Shown here in pieces: positions 32,669-40,534 of a stretch of DNA of 64,000 nucleotides. The notes under the pieces were generated by a model. The model had not been told where the DNA came from and made no database searches. It saw nothing but the letters and a program-made list of their open reading frames with translations. The stretch comes from Acidobacteriota bacterium. Lineage in GTDB: Bacteria; Acidobacteriota; UBA6911; RPQK01; JACQSY01. The stretch lies in contig JACQSY010000103.1 of NCBI GenBank assembly GCA_016211085.1, positions 1-64,000 on the forward strand, in the 5' to 3' direction. Numbering within the stretch: the first letter of the stretch is position 1; every line of letters starts with the position of its first letter. The position numbers and the translations under genes were made by a program.

Positions 32669-33076
32669 ATGGCTGGAAAAAATCCCTACATTGAGGAAGT
32701 CAGCGTTCAGCTGCCTGAAACGCGCTACAAGATCACTTTCGTGAGTGAAGGTCGCGTTGTCGAAGTGGACCCATCGCAAATACCCTTCCAGAGAACCGGC
32801 TTGCCGGGAAGCATCCTCGACATCGCCCTGGGCAACGGGATTGAAATTGATCACGCATGTGGAGGCGTGGTGGCTTGTTCCACCTGTCACATTCATGTGC
32901 TGCAAGGGCTGGAATCGTGTAACGAGCCCACGGAGGACGAACAAGACATGCTTGACATGGCCCCCGACCTCTCGCCGAAATCGCGGCTGTCTTGCCAATG
33001 TGTGCCCGATGGCACGCAGGATGTGGTTGTGGAGGTTCCTGCATGGAACCGCAACCTGGTCCGCGAAAGTCATTAG
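32669..33076 (+). CDS. fdx: [2Fe-2S] ferredoxin, adrenodoxin/Isc type
   Basis: The 135-residue ferredoxin has the adrenodoxin-type ligand spacing: Cys64, Cys70 and Cys73 in ACGGVVACSTCH, and a fourth at Cys109, with IPFQRTGLPGSILDIALGNG before the cluster. Such ferredoxins serve in Fe-S assembly or supply electrons to P450s or other oxygenases. It has AGGGGAATC ahead of its ATG and is divergent from ilvD. The EgtD-like gene follows 78 bp downstream on the same strand. A role as electron donor to the MNIO locus 3.5 kb away is possible but unsupported. Confidence 0.92.
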   Translation: MAGKNPYIEEVSVQLPETRYKITFVSEGRVVEVDPSQIPFQRTGLPGSILDIALGNGIEIDHACGGVVACSTCHIHVLQGLESCNEPTEDEQDMLDMAPDLSPKSRLSCQCVPDGTQDVVVEVPAWNRNLVRESH

Positions 33077-33154: not shown

Positions 33155-34114
33155 GTGGCAGAGTCACTTATCTCGGTCGATATTGTCCTCACTGAAGAGG
33201 AACTCACCCGCGATTTCACGGAATCACTCCGGCGTAGAGACTTAAAAGAGTTTTTTTTCTACTGGCTTCCCATCTCGGTGCAAGCATGGCTGAGTCTTTG
33301 CACGGACGGAGCCTACAAGAACTTCTGGCGCTCCCGCACGCTTCTTCAACACCACCTCTACGAAATGATCGAAGCCTTGCCTTGGGATTTGGCAGAGGTG
33401 GTCAGCCTGGGCTCAGGCCAGGGAATCAAGGACCGCGCGCTGATGGAGGCGCTGCGTACCAGAAACCCGACGGTTGTTTATCGTCCGGTAGACGCCAGTC
33501 AGTCGCTGTTGGAACTTGCACTTCGCGAAATGTCTTCAATGGGAATCCCTACGCGTGGGCTCAAGGCCGATATCAGCAAGCCGGAACAGCTTTACTGTTG
33601 CTTGGGAGCCGCCGCTGGCGGTCCGAGGCTGGTTCTGCTGTTGGGAAACACGTTGGGCGCCTTTGATCCACTGCAATACTGCCAGGGTCTTAGGCTGCTG
33701 CTTCGTAAAGGGGATTACCTCCTCATCGATGGAGAGATATTCGATCCCGCATCGACACTGGCCGGTTATGACAATCCTCAGAATCGCCGCTTTGCTATGG
33801 GACCCTTGATGAGTGTCGGCATTAGTGAAGAAGTGGGAACACTGGTCTTTGAAACTGTAACAGATGAAAGGCTACCCGGATTGTACCGGCTGCAAAAACA
33901 CTTCGAATTCCTCCAGCCGTGCCGCGTCTTGGTGGCGGGTAACTTCATTGAGTTCTCCCCCTCAGAGCGTGTCCGTATGAATTTTTCGTACAAGTATTCC
34001 ATGCAATCTTTTGAGGAGCTGGTATGCAAACGCGCGGGGATGGTTCCTTTAAAGAGATTTTTGAGCGCCGATCTGAACTTTACGATGTTTCTGGCGCAAG
34101 CACCGACATCGTGA
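33155..34114 (+). CDS. EgtD-like SAM methyltransferase
   Basis: The 319-residue protein has the EgtD/DUF2260 histidine-specific methyltransferase layout: VVSLGSGQGIKDRALMEAL as the SAM loop, YRPVDASQSLLE, LVLLLGNTLGAFDPLQYCQG, AGYDNPQNRRFAMGPL, and SYKYSMQSFEELVCKRAGM near the end. EgtD trimethylates histidine to hercynine in ergothioneine synthesis. Here the substrate-binding segment usually written as E-x-S-x-K-Y reads N-F-S-Y-K-Y, so the conserved Glu appears to be Asn; the substrate may differ. GTG 33155. Its stop overlaps the ABC ATPase start. EgtB-type sulfoxide synthase is absent from the window. Confidence 0.75.
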   Translation: MAESLISVDIVLTEEELTRDFTESLRRRDLKEFFFYWLPISVQAWLSLCTDGAYKNFWRSRTLLQHHLYEMIEALPWDLAEVVSLGSGQGIKDRALMEALRTRNPTVVYRPVDASQSLLELALREMSSMGIPTRGLKADISKPEQLYCCLGAAAGGPRLVLLLGNTLGAFDPLQYCQGLRLLLRKGDYLLIDGEIFDPASTLAGYDNPQNRRFAMGPLMSVGISEEVGTLVFETVTDERLPGLYRLQKHFEFLQPCRVLVAGNFIEFSPSERVRMNFSYKYSMQSFEELVCKRAGMVPLKRFLSADLNFTMFLAQAPTS

Positions 34115-34854
34115 ATCCAGCCATAGACCTTTTGGATGTTTTCTTTCAGCGAGAAAATCGCAAGATAATTTCCAACTTTAGCCTGCGGATCGATTACGGG
34201 GAGATCTGTGTCCTGCTGGGACGCAGCGGCTGCGGAAAAACTACGGTGCTCAAGCTGATCAACCGGTTGCTTGAACCTGCACGCGGTGAGATCCGAGTCG
34301 ATGGGAGATCCACGAAGGAGTGGGACCCCATCCAATTAAAACGACACATTGGCTATGTTATCCAGGAAGTGGGCCTGTTTCCCCACATGACGGTCGGGGC
34401 CAACCTGGGCCTGCTCCTCAAGCTTGAGCGCTGGGAAGCGGAGCGCATTGACCAAAGAGTGAAGGAACTGCTCGAGATGATCGGTCTGGAACCACAGCAG
34501 TTTGGCAAGCGATATCCTTCAGAGCTTTCGGGAGGCCAACGTCAACGCGTAGGCGTCGCGCGCGCCCTGGCGCTGGACCCGCCTATTTTGCTGATGGATG
34601 AACCCTTCGGAGCGCTTGATCCTCTGACTCGACAGGAAATACAGGCGGAGTTTCTTGCACTTCAGGGCCGGCTGAAGAAAACGGTGGTGCTGGTTACCCA
34701 TGACTTGCGAGAGGCCCTCCTTCTAGGTACGCGAATCGTGCTCTTGAGAGAAGGCCGAATTGCTGCCCTGGGCACGCCTCAGGAACTCCTGTCCTCGCGA
34801 GATGTCGAAATTATGCAGTACCTGAAACCGCTTCGTGATGTTCATGTGTTGTGA
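34111..34854 (+). CDS. OpuC/ProV-type ABC transporter ATP-binding protein
   Basis: The ATPase (about 247 residues) powers import of a quaternary-amine osmolyte or related betaine. It has Walker A LLGRSGCGKTT, signature SGGQRQRVGVARALALDPP and Walker B LLMDEPFGALD. It is shorter than ProV, lacking the C-terminal CBS pair, so it looks like the OpuCA family's CBS-less subset. GTG 34111 shares GTGA with the stop of the EgtD-like gene; an upstream in-frame ATG (34024) lies deep in that gene and is less likely. It is followed by permease and binding protein. Confidence 0.9.
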   Translation: MNPAIDLLDVFFQRENRKIISNFSLRIDYGEICVLLGRSGCGKTTVLKLINRLLEPARGEIRVDGRSTKEWDPIQLKRHIGYVIQEVGLFPHMTVGANLGLLLKLERWEAERIDQRVKELLEMIGLEPQQFGKRYPSELSGGQRQRVGVARALALDPPILLMDEPFGALDPLTRQEIQAEFLALQGRLKKTVVLVTHDLREALLLGTRIVLLREGRIAALGTPQELLSSRDVEIMQYLKPLRDVHVL

Positions 34855-34866
34855 GGAATTTTGGAA

Positions 34867-35508
34867 ATGGAACTAGCTGAATTCTTACTTGAAAATCGCG
34901 CTGAGGTCACGCGACTCATCGGACAGCATGTGAGCCTGGTTCTGCTCTCGACGGTGCTGGCATGTGCAGTAGGGATTCCTGCAGGTTTAGTGATGACGCG
35001 CAGCCACTGGTTCGAGAAAGCGGGACTCGGTTTTGCAAACGTGGTACAGACGATTCCCAGTCTGGCTCTCTTCGGTTTCTTGATCCCTGTTCCGGCAATC
35101 GGCGGAATTGGAGCGCGCACTGCCATTGTTGCCATGGTCCTTTACGCGCTTCTCCCAATCGTTCGTAATACCTACGCCGGAATTAGAGGGGTCGAAGAAT
35201 CGGTACTGGAAGCGGGCCGTGGACTCGGGCTTACGCCCTCCCAACTCATGTGGCACATTCAGATTCCCTTGTCGCTTGACGTCATCATGGCCGGCGTTAG
35301 GGTGGCGGCCATTACGTCTGTGGGAGTCGCCACCATTGCGGCAGCCATCGGCGCCGGAGGCCTGGGAATGTACATTTTTCGCGGAGTGGCTAGCGTCAAC
35401 AGCACATTGATACTGGCCGGGGCGGTCCCGGCAGCGCTGATGGCGCTCATGGTTGACTTCGCACTGGGGAGGCTGGAGGTGCACTTGCGCCGCCATAAGA
35501 GAAGCTAA
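34867..35508 (+). CDS. OpuC-type ABC transporter permease
   Basis: The 213-residue inner-membrane protein has about five transmembrane helices and the binding-protein-dependent permease signature EAGRGLGLTPSQLMWHIQIPLSL in its cytoplasmic loop, the EAA motif contacting the ATPase. ATG 34867 has GAGG 10 nt upstream; TTG 34861 is a second candidate. It lies 12 bp after the ATPase gene and 9 bp before the binding-protein gene, forming a typical glycine-betaine/osmoprotectant importer. Confidence 0.92.
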   Translation: MELAEFLLENRAEVTRLIGQHVSLVLLSTVLACAVGIPAGLVMTRSHWFEKAGLGFANVVQTIPSLALFGFLIPVPAIGGIGARTAIVAMVLYALLPIVRNTYAGIRGVEESVLEAGRGLGLTPSQLMWHIQIPLSLDVIMAGVRVAAITSVGVATIAAAIGAGGLGMYIFRGVASVNSTLILAGAVPAALMALMVDFALGRLEVHLRRHKRS

Positions 35509-35517
35509 CCTCAGTCA

Positions 35518-36390
35518 ATGACAACACGATCCATTTTCATCTGGTTGCTTTCCTTACTGGCGGTCTCCTGTCGATCCGGGGAGCGCATTGTGGTGGGCTC
35601 CAAGAACTTCACCGAACAGATTATTCTTGGAGAGTTACTCGCACAACACATCGAAAACGAAACCGGGCTGCCGGTCGAACGTAAGCTTAATCTGGGCGGC
35701 ACCTTTCTGTGTCACCAGGCCCTTCTCTCTGGAGAAGTCGACGTTTATGTCGAATACACCGGGACGGCGCTCACCGCCATTCTCAAGAAGACGCCCCTTA
35801 CTGACCCGGAGAAGGTCTTGAGCGAGGTACGATCCGCATATGCACCCTGGGACATCGAATGGCTGGACCCCCTTGGATTTAACAACAGCTTTGCCATCAT
35901 CGTCCGCGGAAGCGATGCTCGAAGGCTGCACATTGAGACCATCTCCGATGCGTCGCGTTTTACCCCCCAGTGGAGGGCTGGCTTTGGCTATGAGTTCATA
36001 GAACGCGCAGACGGATTGAAAGGCTTGTCGCAAACCTATCGGCTGGTATTCAGGGAGCCTTCGAAGGTGATGGAACTGGGTCTGATTTATAAAGCGCTGG
36101 CTGACGGCCAGGTGGATCTGATTGCCGGCGATACAACCAGCGGTCTGATTTCAGCTCTGGATCTGGTGGTGTTGACGGACGACCGGCACTATTTCCCGCC
36201 CTATCAAGCGGTCCCTTTGATTCGAAAAGACACGCTGTCAAAATATCCGGCGCTGAGGCCAGCCCTCGAGAGGCTGAGAGGCATCCTGAACGAAAATCTC
36301 ATGCGGGAGCTCAACTTCGCTGTTGATGGCCGCAAGCAGCCGGTCGAGACCGTTGTGCGCTCCCTTTTGAGCCGCCAGCTGAATCCCTAG
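35518..36390 (+). CDS. Osmoprotectant-family substrate-binding lipoprotein
   Basis: A 290-residue periplasmic lipoprotein (signal helix FIWLLSLLAVSC with lipobox Cys18) of the OpuAC/OpuBC family. VGSKNFTEQIILGELLAQHIEN is the family N-terminus, and GEVDVYVEYTGTALTAIL and LTDDRHYFPPYQAVPLIR follow. These proteins bind glycine betaine, choline, proline betaine, or in some cases trimethylhistidine derivatives. The SBP is separate, unlike fused EgtU. It completes the importer coupled to the EgtD-like methyltransferase. Confidence 0.92.
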   Translation: MTTRSIFIWLLSLLAVSCRSGERIVVGSKNFTEQIILGELLAQHIENETGLPVERKLNLGGTFLCHQALLSGEVDVYVEYTGTALTAILKKTPLTDPEKVLSEVRSAYAPWDIEWLDPLGFNNSFAIIVRGSDARRLHIETISDASRFTPQWRAGFGYEFIERADGLKGLSQTYRLVFREPSKVMELGLIYKALADGQVDLIAGDTTSGLISALDLVVLTDDRHYFPPYQAVPLIRKDTLSKYPALRPALERLRGILNENLMRELNFAVDGRKQPVETVVRSLLSRQLNP

Positions 36391-36397
36391 CAAAAAG

Positions 36398-36426
36398 TGG
36401 AAAATAGCTGAAGCAGGGAATATAAT
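36398..36426 (+). promoter_or_regulatory. Promoter of the small-peptide gene
   Basis: TGGAAA (36398-36403; four of six -35 matches) is 17 bp from a perfect TATAAT (36421-36426). Transcription should begin near 36433, 25 nt before the peptide start, in the 67-bp gap after the transporter operon. The peptide gene is thus separately promoted. Confidence 0.5.
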
Positions 36427-36457
36427 AACTTAAACCTTTCATGCCTCGGAGGTGGAC

Positions 36458-36535
36458 ATGAAAAAATCCCTGGAAAGGAAAGCTGTGGACGAGGGCGTCG
36501 TCGTCGTTGAGAAGGCGAACCTCGTCCCGACCTGA
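36458..36535 (+). CDS. 25-aa peptide gene: putative RiPP precursor or leader peptide
   Basis: ATG 36458 follows GGAGG by 5 nt, the strongest ribosome site in the neighbourhood. The 25-residue peptide starts MKKSLERKAVDEG, then has four valines (codons 14-17) and ends EKANLVPT. It has no cysteine, so any modification must target other residues, for example Asn21, Asp11 or Thr25. A hairpin overlaps its stop and a terminator follows, then the MNIO gene. I infer a RiPP precursor because a small gene next to an MNIO oxidase and a partner protein is the usual arrangement. The alternative is an attenuator leader peptide, suggested by the Val run. Confidence 0.6.
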   Translation: MKKSLERKAVDEGVVVVEKANLVPT

Positions 36536-36546
36536 CACTAGTCGGG
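36526..36546 (+). other. Hairpin overlapping the peptide stop codon
   Basis: CCCGAC (36526-36531) pairs with GTCGGG (36541-36546) with a 9-nt loop that contains the end of the TGA (36533-36535). It could serve mRNA stability, or a pause/regulatory hairpin if the peptide is an attenuator. Confidence 0.45.
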
Positions 36547-36552
36547 TCGACA

Positions 36553-36571
36553 CCCGGCTGGTTCAGCCGGG
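36553..36571 (+). other. Strong GC hairpin between peptide and terminator
   Basis: CCCGGCTG (36553-36560) and CAGCCGGG (36564-36571) form an 8-bp stem with a 3-nt loop. It lies between the stop-codon hairpin and the terminator. No T tract follows it directly. Confidence 0.6.
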
Positions 36572-36578
36572 CTAAGAA

Positions 36579-36613
36579 GGACCCTCGGACAAGATTCTGA
36601 GGGTCCTTTTTTT
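36579..36613 (+). terminator. Rho-independent terminator after the peptide gene
   Basis: GGACCCTC (36579-36586) pairs with GAGGGTCC (36599-36606) with a 12-nt loop, followed by seven Ts (36607-36613). It would stop most transcripts between the peptide and the MNIO gene, favouring excess peptide, unless the downstream promoter is used. Confidence 0.85.
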
Positions 36614-36621
36614 GTTATGAT
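36613..36621 (+). promoter_or_regulatory. Extended -10 at the MNIO gene start
   Basis: TG (36613-36614), T, TATGAT (36616-36621) is an extended -10 ending 5 nt before ATG 36627. Predicted +1 falls on or next to the A of the start codon. The box lies in two tandem copies of TTTGTTATGA (36611-36620 and 36621-36630). No ribosome site is visible. Confidence 0.4.
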
Positions 36622-36626
36622 TTGTT

Positions 36627-37433
36627 ATGAATAGAGCGAAAGTCTCGGCAGGCGCTTTTTATAATCCTCATCTTGCCGATGAGATCCTTGGCGCAGCCTC
36701 TCTTGTCGACCATTTGGCCATGGCCGATCCTCCAGAGAAGTCCGATCCGCATTTTTCAAAAATTCGGGAGCAGTTCACGCTCCTGCTGCACGATTTCATT
36801 GGACAGCTCTCCGATCCTGTACCACGCCATTCCCTGCAACGAGCGCGTGAACTGGCCGACTTGTACGGTTCACCCTGGATTGCAGAGCACTTTCAATGCG
36901 TGCATACGCAGGACGGGCGCTACAATGTAGATTACGTTTTTCCCCCGCTATATACCGAGGAATTTCTCGAGCGCTATATAGAAAACGCGGTGGTTTTGAA
37001 ACAAGCAGTGGGAAGACCGCTCGCCATTGAAAACATTCCCCGTTACTTCTCAGTCGATCTGGATGAAATGACCGAGGGCCAGTTTCTCAGGAAATTCTTT
37101 GAGACAAGCGGGTGCAGCTTGATTCTCGATATTTCCCACGCATGGCTGGGCGCTTACTACCAGGGCCGCTCGCCTCAGGATTACATTACCGACCTGCCGT
37201 TGGAGTATGTACAGGAGCTGCATATTGCTGGGGTTGCGCACTACTCCGATTTGGAAGGTCCCTGGATCGGCCCGGTCGAACCTACTGAAGAAATGTTAAA
37301 GCTGGCGGCGTGGACTTTTGAGAGACTGCCCAATTGCCAGGCGGTTACTTTTGACGCGTTTTCAACCCTTCTGAAGCCCGGTATGATTCCCCGCACCATG
37401 GAGCGCATACGTAGGGAGTTGAACCTCGGATGA
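36627..37433 (+). CDS. DUF692-family multinuclear non-heme iron oxidase (MNIO)
   Basis: The 268-residue protein matches the DUF692/MNIO fold: WIAEHFQ (84-90), LAIENIPRY (132-140), LILDISHAW (165-173), ELHIAG (197-202) and TFDAF (241-245). MNIO enzymes (MbnB, TglH, ApyH) use two or three irons and oxygen to rearrange side chains of peptide precursors, acting on Cys in MbnB/TglH and on Asp in ApyH. Candidate ligands are Glu87, His88, Glu135, Asp168, His171 and His199. The segment that often reads D-x-H near residues 205-215 is YSDLEGPWIGP, so the metal site may be atypical. Its stop overlaps the partner gene (ATGA). Confidence 0.8.
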   Translation: MNRAKVSAGAFYNPHLADEILGAASLVDHLAMADPPEKSDPHFSKIREQFTLLLHDFIGQLSDPVPRHSLQRARELADLYGSPWIAEHFQCVHTQDGRYNVDYVFPPLYTEEFLERYIENAVVLKQAVGRPLAIENIPRYFSVDLDEMTEGQFLRKFFETSGCSLILDISHAWLGAYYQGRSPQDYITDLPLEYVQELHIAGVAHYSDLEGPWIGPVEPTEEMLKLAAWTFERLPNCQAVTFDAFSTLLKPGMIPRTMERIRRELNLG

Positions 37434-38224
37434 GTTCGCGCAACGCTCAGGACGTCATTTTGCGCCTTTTGGCAGACGGGCCCTACCGCAGACAGGTCCT
37501 TTCGGGAAAGGCTGCGCCGGAGGAGCTGAAGGTTGCATCGCGGATCCAGGTGGAAGGATTACAGCGCTTTGCGGTTTTTCTCGCTCGTCATTTTTATCGC
37601 GAGCGCGTGGTCCACCTGCTTAAGTACTCGCGAGCCCTCTCCAGCCTGACAGGCCGGTCCCCCGAATCGGTGCTTAAGACGCCCGCCTTCAATGCTCTGA
37701 TACCTGAAGTGGTTCTGGGAAGCCGCGCAACCGCCCTACAGGTTGCGGCGCTGCTGCGAGATTTTCTGGTCAACGACTGCGAAAACATCCAGCAAAAGCT
37801 TCCGTATTGGAAAGACCTGGTTCAGTACGAGACAGCCTTTTTTGTCACTGATTCACCCCTGGAGCAGGGAAAAGACCCTGCGGGACCTTTCCCATTTGTA
37901 GCCCCAGGCATCCAGATTCTCAATCTGGATTGGGATCTTCCCTCGATTTTCCCCTCGATCATGGACGCAGCTGCGAGAAGAACAACTCAAGGTTCAAGAA
38001 AGCCCACACGATTGCTGATGTGCCGTGCGGCGGGCGGCGAAGTAACCGTAGCCCGGTGTTCAGATTCAGTTGAGAAGATACTGCGGATGTTGGACGGAAA
38101 TACGGATCCGGAAAAGTTGCAGTCGGTCTTAGGAAAGGATGAGGCCTGGATCCGCCAGACCCTCTCGTCGCTTTTTCAAATAGGCGTCCTGGAAGCGCCG
38201 CTGCTTCCGCACCCTGCTAGATAA
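37430..38224 (+). CDS. MNIO partner protein with PqqD-like C-terminal domain
   Basis: The 264-residue protein has an alpha-helical N-terminal region (about 1-150) with no match I can name, and a C-terminal winged-helix-like segment (about 195-257): GEVTVARCSDSVEKILRMLDGNT, then VLGKDEAWIRQTLSSLFQIGVL (split by eye). This resembles the RiPP recognition element of PqqD and of MNIO partner proteins (MbnC/TglI type). It probably binds the peptide leader and presents it to the oxidase. ATG 37430 overlaps the MNIO stop by 4 bp. Two cysteines occur in the C-terminal domain. No transporter or protease gene follows. Confidence 0.75.
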   Translation: MSSRNAQDVILRLLADGPYRRQVLSGKAAPEELKVASRIQVEGLQRFAVFLARHFYRERVVHLLKYSRALSSLTGRSPESVLKTPAFNALIPEVVLGSRATALQVAALLRDFLVNDCENIQQKLPYWKDLVQYETAFFVTDSPLEQGKDPAGPFPFVAPGIQILNLDWDLPSIFPSIMDAAARRTTQGSRKPTRLLMCRAAGGEVTVARCSDSVEKILRMLDGNTDPEKLQSVLGKDEAWIRQTLSSLFQIGVLEAPLLPHPAR

Positions 38225-38716: not shown

Positions 38717-38829
38717 GAGATCTCCTTTCCTTGTCTTAGAGACATTCTAGGGTGGCAAACCTGGTTAATGAAGCGATGGATCATGATAAACAGGTTTTCC
38801 CCGGACCTCAAATCAGGGTCAAGCGGTCA

Positions 38830-38838
38830 TGCTAAACT
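38830..38838 (+). promoter_or_regulatory. Extended -10 upstream of the M28 peptidase
   Basis: TG (38830-38831), C, TAAACT (38833-38838). ATGCTAAACT occurs also at 52874-52883 and 59504-59513, before other genes. Confidence 0.4.
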
Positions 38839-38869
38839 GAGTGTCACGTCGAAAAGGATCGTGAAAACA

Positions 38870-40534
38870 ATGAAAAATCGATATTCATTGCTGGTCTGGA
38901 CCTGGATATTGATCTGGCAAAATCTATTGCATGCACAAAAGGGGAACGACGCCGTGAAAATCCAGCCTTCCAATATCCGTGCTCATGTCCGCTTTCTTTC
39001 CTCCGACTTAATGGAAGGGAGGCTTCCCGCCACCCGCGGAGGAGACCTGGCGGCTCACTATATAGCCACTCAATTCGAGCTGGCGGGTCTCAAGCCGGTG
39101 AATAAAGATTCTTATTTTCAAATGGTGCCCATGGTAGGTATGAATGCGGATCCGAACATGCAGATGGTGCTGGACCGCCAGGGGAGTTCACTTGAGCTGA
39201 ATTACCGGAAAGATTTTGTAGCCTGGGCGGGAATCGAAAAAGAAGAGGTCACGATTCGCAACGGGGAAGTGGTTTTTGTAGGTTACGGGATCTCGGCGCC
39301 TGAGGTGCCTTGGGACGACTACAAAGGCACCGATGTACGCGGCAAGATTCTCATGATGCTTGTAAATGATCCTCCCTCCGACGATCCCGGGTTTTTTGGA
39401 GGCAAGGCCCTGACCTATTACGGCCGCTGGACTTACAAACTGGAGGAAGCGGCCCGGCGAGGTGCCCTGGGTGTGCTGCTGGTCCACAACACCGATATGG
39501 CAGGGTATCCATGGCAGGTTGTGGAAGGGTCCTGGACCGGCGAGCAATTCTCACTTCCCCAGGAAGTTGAAAAAAGCAGCGTCATCGAGGCTTGGATCAC
39601 CGAAGCTCGCGCCGACGAGGTCTTGAAAGCGGCAGGTTTGAATTTTGCTCAAGCCCGCGAGCGGGCGGGAAAAGCTGATTTCAGATCCGTCCCGCTCGGA
39701 TGGTCCATGAATCTCTCTGTGAATTCTTCCATCCGCAAGGTGGAATCTCCCAATGTCGTGGGATTACTCGAAGGAATTGATGCCCGGTTGAAAAACGAAA
39801 TCATCCTGATCACTACTCATTATGATCATCTGGGTATCGGAATCGAGGTAGAGGGCGACTCCATTTACAATGGCGCCTTTGATAACGCTTCCGGGACCGG
39901 TGGCATGCTTGAATTGGCTCGCGTCATGGCGGCTCAACGGCCGCGGTGGTCGATCCTGTTCGCCGCCGTGACCGCCGAAGAGCAGGGATTGATCGGCTCA
40001 GAGTATTATGCTCGCCATCCGCTGTTCCCACTGTCTCGAACTGCCGCCAATATCAATTTCGACAGCATAAGCGTTTGGGAGGAGTCGGAAAATATCATCA
40101 CAATGGGAGCGGAACGTTCTTCTCTTGATGAAGTGGTCAGGAACGTGGCCTCAGAAATGAGAATCGTAATCTCCCCAGATCCCTTTCCGGAAAAAGGTCA
40201 TTTTTTCCGTTCGGATCAGTTCAGCCTGGTCAAGGTGGGAGTTCCTGCCGTTTATTTGGATCCTGGTTTGATGATTCGCGGCAAACCTGAAGGGTGGGGA
40301 GAACGAATGATGAACGAGTACACGGAAAAAAGATACCACCAACCCAGCGATGAGTTTGACCCGTCTTGGAGTTTCGAAGGGGCCGCCCAAATGATGGAGT
40401 TTGCACGGCGGACCGCCCTGAAAATTGCAAATAGCGAATCCATGCCACGCTGGAAACCCGGAGACCAATTCGAGGCACTCCGCAAGAAGAACCTCGCTGA
40501 GGAAGGGAAGTCTCCCTCAGCCCTGGTGCGCTAG
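38870..40534 (+). CDS. Secreted M28-family metallopeptidase with PA domain
   Basis: From ATG 38870 the product has 554 residues with a signal peptide (MKNRYSLLVWTWILIWQNLLHAQ, split by eye). A PA domain (about 120-260) is inserted in the catalytic domain. The zinc ligands are in THYDHLGIG, FDNASGTGGMLELARVM, VTAEEQGLIGSEYYA and the later RSDQFSLVKVGVPAVYL. M28 enzymes are di-zinc aminopeptidases; substrates here are presumably peptides outside the cell or in the periplasm. The two Asp/His motifs and EE pair are intact. GTG 38861 is a possible alternative start. Confidence 0.9.
   Translation: MKNRYSLLVWTWILIWQNLLHAQKGNDAVKIQPSNIRAHVRFLSSDLMEGRLPATRGGDLAAHYIATQFELAGLKPVNKDSYFQMVPMVGMNADPNMQMVLDRQGSSLELNYRKDFVAWAGIEKEEVTIRNGEVVFVGYGISAPEVPWDDYKGTDVRGKILMMLVNDPPSDDPGFFGGKALTYYGRWTYKLEEAARRGALGVLLVHNTDMAGYPWQVVEGSWTGEQFSLPQEVEKSSVIEAWITEARADEVLKAAGLNFAQARERAGKADFRSVPLGWSMNLSVNSSIRKVESPNVVGLLEGIDARLKNEIILITTHYDHLGIGIEVEGDSIYNGAFDNASGTGGMLELARVMAAQRPRWSILFAAVTAEEQGLIGSEYYARHPLFPLSRTAANINFDSISVWEESENIITMGAERSSLDEVVRNVASEMRIVISPDPFPEKGHFFRSDQFSLVKVGVPAVYLDPGLMIRGKPEGWGERMMNEYTEKRYHQPSDEFDPSWSFEGAAQMMEFARRTALKIANSESMPRWKPGDQFEALRKKNLAEEGKSPSALVR

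Follow-up and report, generated by a model that had tools for sequence, protein, structure and literature searches.

The reactions of MNIOs with Cys have been studied extensively, and selenocysteine (Sec) in RiPP precursors is known from radical SAM systems. The closest described system is TglHI of the 3-thiaglutamate (pearlin) pathway in Pseudomonas syringae, in which an MNIO and its RRE-type partner act on the C-terminal Cys of a short scaffold peptide, a residue added post-translationally from Cys-tRNA. TglHI has been tested with a Sec analogue, and TglA-Sec proved to be an inhibitor (PMC9016710). The HvfABC system and the bufferins are 5-thiooxazole MNIO RiPPs with Cys-containing precursors. 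The selenobacteriocin and thio(seleno)oxazole RiPPs (TIGR04081) have genetically encoded Sec in an SGUG motif with two Sec, and their enzyme is a radical SAM protein (PMC13188914, Table 1). Selenoneine (SenABC) and ergothioneine (EgtABCDE) are made by known routes from free histidine that involve EgtB or SenA, and EgtUV-type importers belong to the same context.

Here, a locus in a soil Acidobacteriota genome (3.5 Mb, 152 contigs, 87% complete) was studied by computation throughout. The window, that is, the whole 64,000-nucleotide stretch of DNA analysed, holds an MNIO gene preceded by a small ORF. We consider it highly likely that this locus makes a Sec-containing MNIO substrate, with an in-frame UGA read as Sec and the product modified by the MNIO.

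Organization of the locus and its relatives

The features of the locus are collected in Table 1. The original prediction placed a promoter in front of the small ORF, and this is borne out: the promoter-like site matches at 10 of 12 positions, with 0.2 such sites expected in shuffles, and -10 boxes of the TATAAG/TATAAA type are seen by eye at the equivalent place in related loci. The hairpins and terminator that it described between the small ORF and the MNIO gene are present as well (the terminator was called at 36574-36611), and an Rfam search of the intergenic region gave sub-threshold matches only. The ORF of 25 codons with a strong ribosome site, the DUF692/MNIO gene and the overlapping partner gene with a PqqD-like/RRE end were likewise recovered: the ORF starts at 36458 and has a GGAGGT Shine-Dalgarno on its 5' side, and the two downstream genes overlap by 4 nt. 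The combination of a short conserved precursor, an MNIO and an RRE-type partner supports the RiPP-type arrangement that had been proposed.

Table 1. Features of the locus, with positions in the window
Feature	Position	Strand	Remarks
EgtD-like (Methyltransf_33) SAM methyltransferase	33155..34114	+	Conserved cluster member
ABC transporter ATPase, betaine/ProV-OpuA type	34024..34854	+	Translation probably starts downstream of 34024
ABC transporter permease, betaine type	34861..35508	+	
OpuAC-family substrate-binding protein	35518..36390	+	Family includes betaine and ergothioneine binders
Sigma-70-like promoter of peptide gene	36398..36426	+	TGGAAA-17-TATAAT; 10/12 consensus match
Predicted selenopeptide gene, MKKSLERKAVDEGVVVVEKANLVPT-Sec-His-stop	36458..36541	+	27 residues if TGA is Sec; ORF, Shine-Dalgarno, conservation, codon pattern
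TGA, predicted Sec codon	36533..36535	+	Next codons CAC (His, 36536-36538) and TAG (stop, 36539-36541); TGA-CAC invariant; SelB and tRNA-Sec in genome
SECIS-like hairpin, CCCGGCUG-GUU-CAGCCGGG	36553..36571	+	Loop 25 nt after UGA; within bSECIS constraints (PMC13188914)
Intrinsic terminator	36574..36613	+	Between peptide gene and MNIO gene
MNIO (DUF692), distinct clade	36627..37433	+	Site 1/2 ligands H55, H88, E135, D168 and H199 kept; site-3 ligands replaced
MNIO partner	37430..38224	+	Helical DUF2063-like domain and C-terminal RRE-like fold; Foldseek TglI, NGO1945

A scan of one genome per species across 84,980 species returned seven close homologues of the MNIO, each from Acidobacteria and with 66-68% identity; those with a named source are without exception Acidobacteria metagenome-assembled genomes. 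A search of 396 genomes of the phylum added one further homologue, in genome G131, at 71% identity. Nine distinct loci were counted, with G356 treated as a duplicate of locus L004, and no relative was found among viral contigs.

Comparison of the flanks reveals a conserved set of seven genes that encode the peptide, the MNIO, the partner, the methyltransferase, the ATPase, the permease and the OpuAC binding protein. The locus had been taken for a minimal three-gene unit without an adjacent transporter, and neither statement holds: an OpuA-type ABC transporter (34024-36390) lies directly upstream and belongs to the conserved cluster. The EgtD-like methyltransferases of the relatives are 43-47% identical to the window copy, and the binding protein is conserved where the contig extends far enough; in G396 the permease gene has no such match after it. 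The relatives have peptide, MNIO, partner, methyltransferase and ABC genes in this order, whereas in the window the set opens with the methyltransferase and ABC genes. G131 has the order of the window, and its contig ends inside the ATPase gene. That the set stays together through a rearranged order argues for one pathway formed by the seven genes.

Close relatives of the methyltransferase (E < 1e-60) are almost limited to these genomes: they occur in 3 of the 396 phylum genomes, of which two have the MNIO and the third, G005, does not. The EgtD-like gene of G005 (L069, G005:C169) encodes a protein with 41% identity and is isolated, with a contig end 0.4 kb away; it was rejected as a cluster member, as there are no cluster genes in 8.7 kb and the contig edge lies on the other side. 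Two neighbours in the window were likewise set aside. A 2Fe-2S ferredoxin gene (32669-33076) lies directly upstream of the EgtD-like gene and is unmatched in the flanks of the other loci; it may supply electrons locally or be a mere bystander. Downstream of the cluster, a peptidase-like ORF (38768-40534, M28-like by eye) was not matched in the other loci and is probably not the maturation protease. No protease conserved in the cluster was found in the flank comparison of related loci.

The peptide ORF and its in-frame UGA

In every one of the nine distinct loci, the MNIO gene is preceded by an ORF of 17-26 codons that ends in LVPT and carries a Shine-Dalgarno sequence, so that the check suggested in the original prediction, a small ORF with a conserved C-terminus beside homologous MNIO genes, was positive in every locus. 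Single-base codon differences between the aligned peptide ORFs are mostly silent in the reading frame (113 synonymous versus 52 non-synonymous), in contrast to the other two frames (14:149 and 28:145). This codon pattern points to translation of the ORF and to selection on it. The peptide matched no NCBIfam or Pfam family, and NCBIfam gave no match with Cys written for Sec either; no paper was found on an LVPT motif. The third positions of the CTC, CCG and ACC codons within LVPT (36521-36532) are invariant in all nine loci although they are free to vary, which suggests that the RNA itself is constrained upstream of the UGA as well as in the hairpin described below.

LVPT is followed by TGA, CAC and a stop codon in each of the nine distinct loci. 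The final stop is TAA in six of them, TAG in the window and in L012, and TGA in L004, and the codon directly 3' of Thr is never TAA or TAG. The coding stretch downstream of the UGA is only one codon long. When the DNA pattern LVPT-TGN-CAY-TRR was searched in the 396 phylum genomes, it was found in exactly the three that have the MNIO clade (0/393 among the others), while a reversed control pattern gave scattered, unrelated matches. The same search detected no Cys homologue of the peptide. An aligned Cys homologue is the usual clinching evidence for Sec, and is supporting rather than obligatory.

A conserved hairpin lies 3' of the UGA, with its loop 18-25 nt downstream and an invariant GU at the loop in 9/9 loci. 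Three pairs of its stem are maintained across the nine loci through changes on both sides. The bSECIS constraints are a loop 16-37 nt after the UGA, a G in the first two loop positions and an MFE <= -7.5 (PMC13188914), and all nine loci fall within them, with a fold of -11.8 in L008. Random TGA positions in the window pass the bSECIS model at a rate of 35%; a SECIS prediction from one sequence alone is weak evidence at this background, and the weight of the argument therefore rests on conservation and not on a single fold. On this basis, the hairpin at 36553-36571 is likely a SECIS element.

The genome encodes a full-length SelB (382.9 bits versus a cut-off of 242), and a tRNA-Sec with a UCA anticodon was identified in it and in seven relatives (8/9 genomes). 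SelB was detected in five of the nine genomes, and SelB and/or tRNA-Sec in all nine; the four in which SelB was not found (G356, which is 63% complete, G399, G400 and G401) all have tRNA-Sec. Co-occurrence with SelB is a weak test of Sec, because 253 of the 396 phylum genomes have SelB.

The conserved UGA-CAC-stop and SECIS-like hairpin, together with the presence of SelB and tRNA-Sec, argue that the TGA is read as Sec, and the peptide probably ends in LVPT-Sec-His. The original prediction ended the ORF at this TGA, which was not confirmed: the codon most likely specifies Sec, with the ORF running on to the TAG. Its view of a peptide without Cys, and hence of non-thiol chemistry, is very probably wrong, since the conserved UGA-CAC-stop reads Sec-His. 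The targets that it put forward find no support, as the homologues have N, S or A at the position of Asn21, Asp11 is not conserved, and the conserved UGA-CAC-stop, read here as Sec-His, lies directly 3' of Thr25. Annotation pipelines end such a peptide at the TGA and leave its key residue invisible; other "cysteine-free" precursors may hide one likewise.

The MNIO, its partner and the clustered proteins

The MNIO scores 102.9 bits with the PF05114 profile (gathering cut-off 25) and is the sole PF05114 match in its genome. Its scores are far below the cut-off of every NCBIfam MNIO equivalog tested: 95.8 bits for BufB (cut-off 310), 82.1 for ApyH (400), 61.6 for HvfB (360), 31.6 for ChrH (600) and 12.0 for MbnB (325). 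The AlphaFold2 model (pLDDT 82) is a TIM-barrel whose top Foldseek matches are 8hci, 8hi7, 3bww and 7tcr, and the modelled fold is nearest to TglH.

The iron site 1/2 ligands listed in Table 1 are present in 9/9 members of the clade and in 29/29 other MNIOs; the last carboxylate of this site looks like D243 instead of Glu, in a region of weak alignment. Iron site 3 is altered. The Asn found at this site in 29/29 other MNIOs is replaced by His171 in 9/9 clade members, and the DTH motif, which provides the site-3 Asp and His, is absent from the clade, unlike in the 29 other MNIOs. Residue 136, which follows the bridging Glu and is usually Asn, is N, Q or S in the clade. Membership in the MNIO superfamily stands despite the altered site. 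In HvfB, single alanine replacements of N175, D242 and H244 each abolish activity (PMC13419390). The replacement here of site-3 residues that are essential in HvfB makes plain 5-thiooxazole formation less likely, and the chemistry of the enzyme is probably a different one. The altered site constitutes a natural test of the function of site 3, a matter that the MNIO field has yet to settle.

A Pfam search of the partner protein gave no match. Its AlphaFold2 model (pLDDT 89.5) was matched by Foldseek to TglI in 8hi7 and 8hci (E 1.7e-5 for 8hi7) and to NGO1945 (3dee, E 7.9e-4), which identifies the modelled fold as the known MNIO partner/RRE fold, like that of TglI. The partner has a C-terminal tail motif, SFSSSHVGS, in six of the nine loci (L002:4804-5640, L003 and L005-L008) that is absent from the window, L004 and L012, and looks like a separate functional tail.

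The methyltransferase falls within Pfam Methyltransf_33 (76.6 bits) and scores 57.2 bits with NCBIfam EgtD, for which the cut-off is 290.9. At the positions of EgtD Asn166 and Glu282, which we take to be the histidine-binding residues, Asn is changed to A, I or V and Glu to N or S, so these putative histidine-binding residues are not conserved. The binding protein scores 144 bits with EgtUC, 163-174 bits with carnitine/choline binders and 171 bits with 8dp6; these values do not discriminate, and the protein was rejected as proof of ergothioneine uptake. No EgtB above the cut-off was found in the nine genomes.

Proposed pathway and comparison with known systems

Our best model is that the product is a selenium-containing RiPP, or a product built on a RiPP scaffold, in which the terminal Sec-His is oxidatively remodelled. 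Sequence features suggest that the in-frame UGA would be translated as Sec, directed by the SECIS just 3' of it, to give a scaffold peptide ending Leu-Val-Pro-Thr-Sec-His. From their family function, the MNIO and the RRE-type partner would bind this peptide and oxidatively modify the C-terminal Sec, probably together with the adjacent His. Clustering and family functions further suggest that the modified C-terminal unit would be released and N-methylated by the EgtD-like enzyme, and that the betaine-type ABC importer would take up the N-methylated product or a relative. A more specific proposal is that a C-Se bond is formed from Sec to the His imidazole, giving a selenoneine-type seleno-histidine betaine whose α-amine is trimethylated by the EgtD-like enzyme, with OpuAC-type uptake. 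We favour this chemistry because it uses every conserved part, namely the Sec-His end, the EgtD family and the importer, and fits the finding of no EgtB above the cut-off in the nine genomes; it is put forward tentatively, as a somewhat unlikely outcome, because the methyltransferase residues are changed, the binding protein is ambiguous and no protease was found. Since TglA-Sec inhibits TglHI, a Sec-using MNIO would need adapted chemistry.

Other explanations were weighed against this model. If the TGA were a true stop, the precursor would end in LVPT, and the residue modified by the MNIO would lie near the C-terminus and be Thr, Val, Pro or an acidic/amide one. The invariance of LVPT fits this explanation, as does the existence of non-Cys MNIO substrates: the ApyA pathway, which includes an MNIO, gives C-terminal β-amino-α-keto acids (PMC10635010). 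A true stop is nevertheless improbable, for it leaves unexplained the conserved TGA and CAC with three kinds of stop, the hairpin at SECIS distance and the lack of TAA or TAG after Thr in nine loci. A regulatory role for the small ORF, as a leader (attenuator) whose hairpins and terminator respond to selenium supply or to where the ribosome stands, would agree with the order of ORF, hairpin and terminator and with the constraint on the third positions of the LVPT codons, and is in our judgement very unlikely. It would leave the MNIO and its partner without a substrate at a locus where they form, with a short conserved peptide, the standard RiPP arrangement; Sec read-through would shift the ribosome by two codons only, which makes a poor switch, and RiPP operons often have a terminator after the gene for the precursor.

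The remaining alternative competes with the preferred chemistry, accepts Sec insertion and shares ground with our best model. Sec would be the sole target, converted to a selenooxazole in the manner of the 5-thiooxazole of HvfA and bufferins or subjected to a TglH-like β-carbon excision, while His would serve for recognition or metal binding only and the methyltransferase would act elsewhere. This is a realistic possibility, short of probable, given the known MNIO reactions on Cys, the folds nearest to TglHI and the thio(seleno)oxazole RiPPs from radical SAM enzymes cited in PMC13188914; the replaced site-3 residues, the invariant C-terminal His and the clustered EgtD-family methyltransferase speak against it.

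With UGA-encoded Sec as the preferred reading, the locus would hold the first MNIO with Sec as its natural substrate and the first selenium-based pathway of this enzyme family, and its product would be among very few natural products from genetically encoded selenium. No MNIO-linked family is listed among the 119 prokaryotic selenoprotein families of the 2026 Table 1 (PMC13188914), none with a natural Sec substrate occurs in NCBIfam, and no paper joining both topics was found in a literature search of incomplete coverage.

The locus shares with TglHI, the best fold match for both the MNIO and the partner, the pairing of these two proteins, a short scaffold peptide and, if the prediction is right, a chalcogen residue at the C-terminus. 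It differs in that Sec is predicted to be UGA-encoded and followed by His, in its iron-site-3 ligands, and in that the conserved cluster showed no PEARL gene. HvfABC and the bufferins belong to the same Pfam family, and BufB is the best NCBIfam match; their precursors are of another type, and the MNIO described here is without the site-3 Asn and DTH ligands. With TIGR04081 the locus would have in common that the RiPP precursor contains Sec encoded in its gene; the enzyme there is not an MNIO, and the Sec is not part of a C-terminal Sec-His. An EgtD-family methyltransferase, an OpuAC-family importer and a predicted His-chalcogen substrate are shared with the selenoneine and ergothioneine systems, from which the locus is set apart by the finding of no EgtB above the cut-off in the nine genomes and by a methyltransferase diverged at the putative histidine-binding residues. 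If the model is correct, an EgtD-family enzyme and an importer are linked to a Sec-His peptide, and a ribosomal origin of selenium-histidine antioxidants becomes a testable idea.
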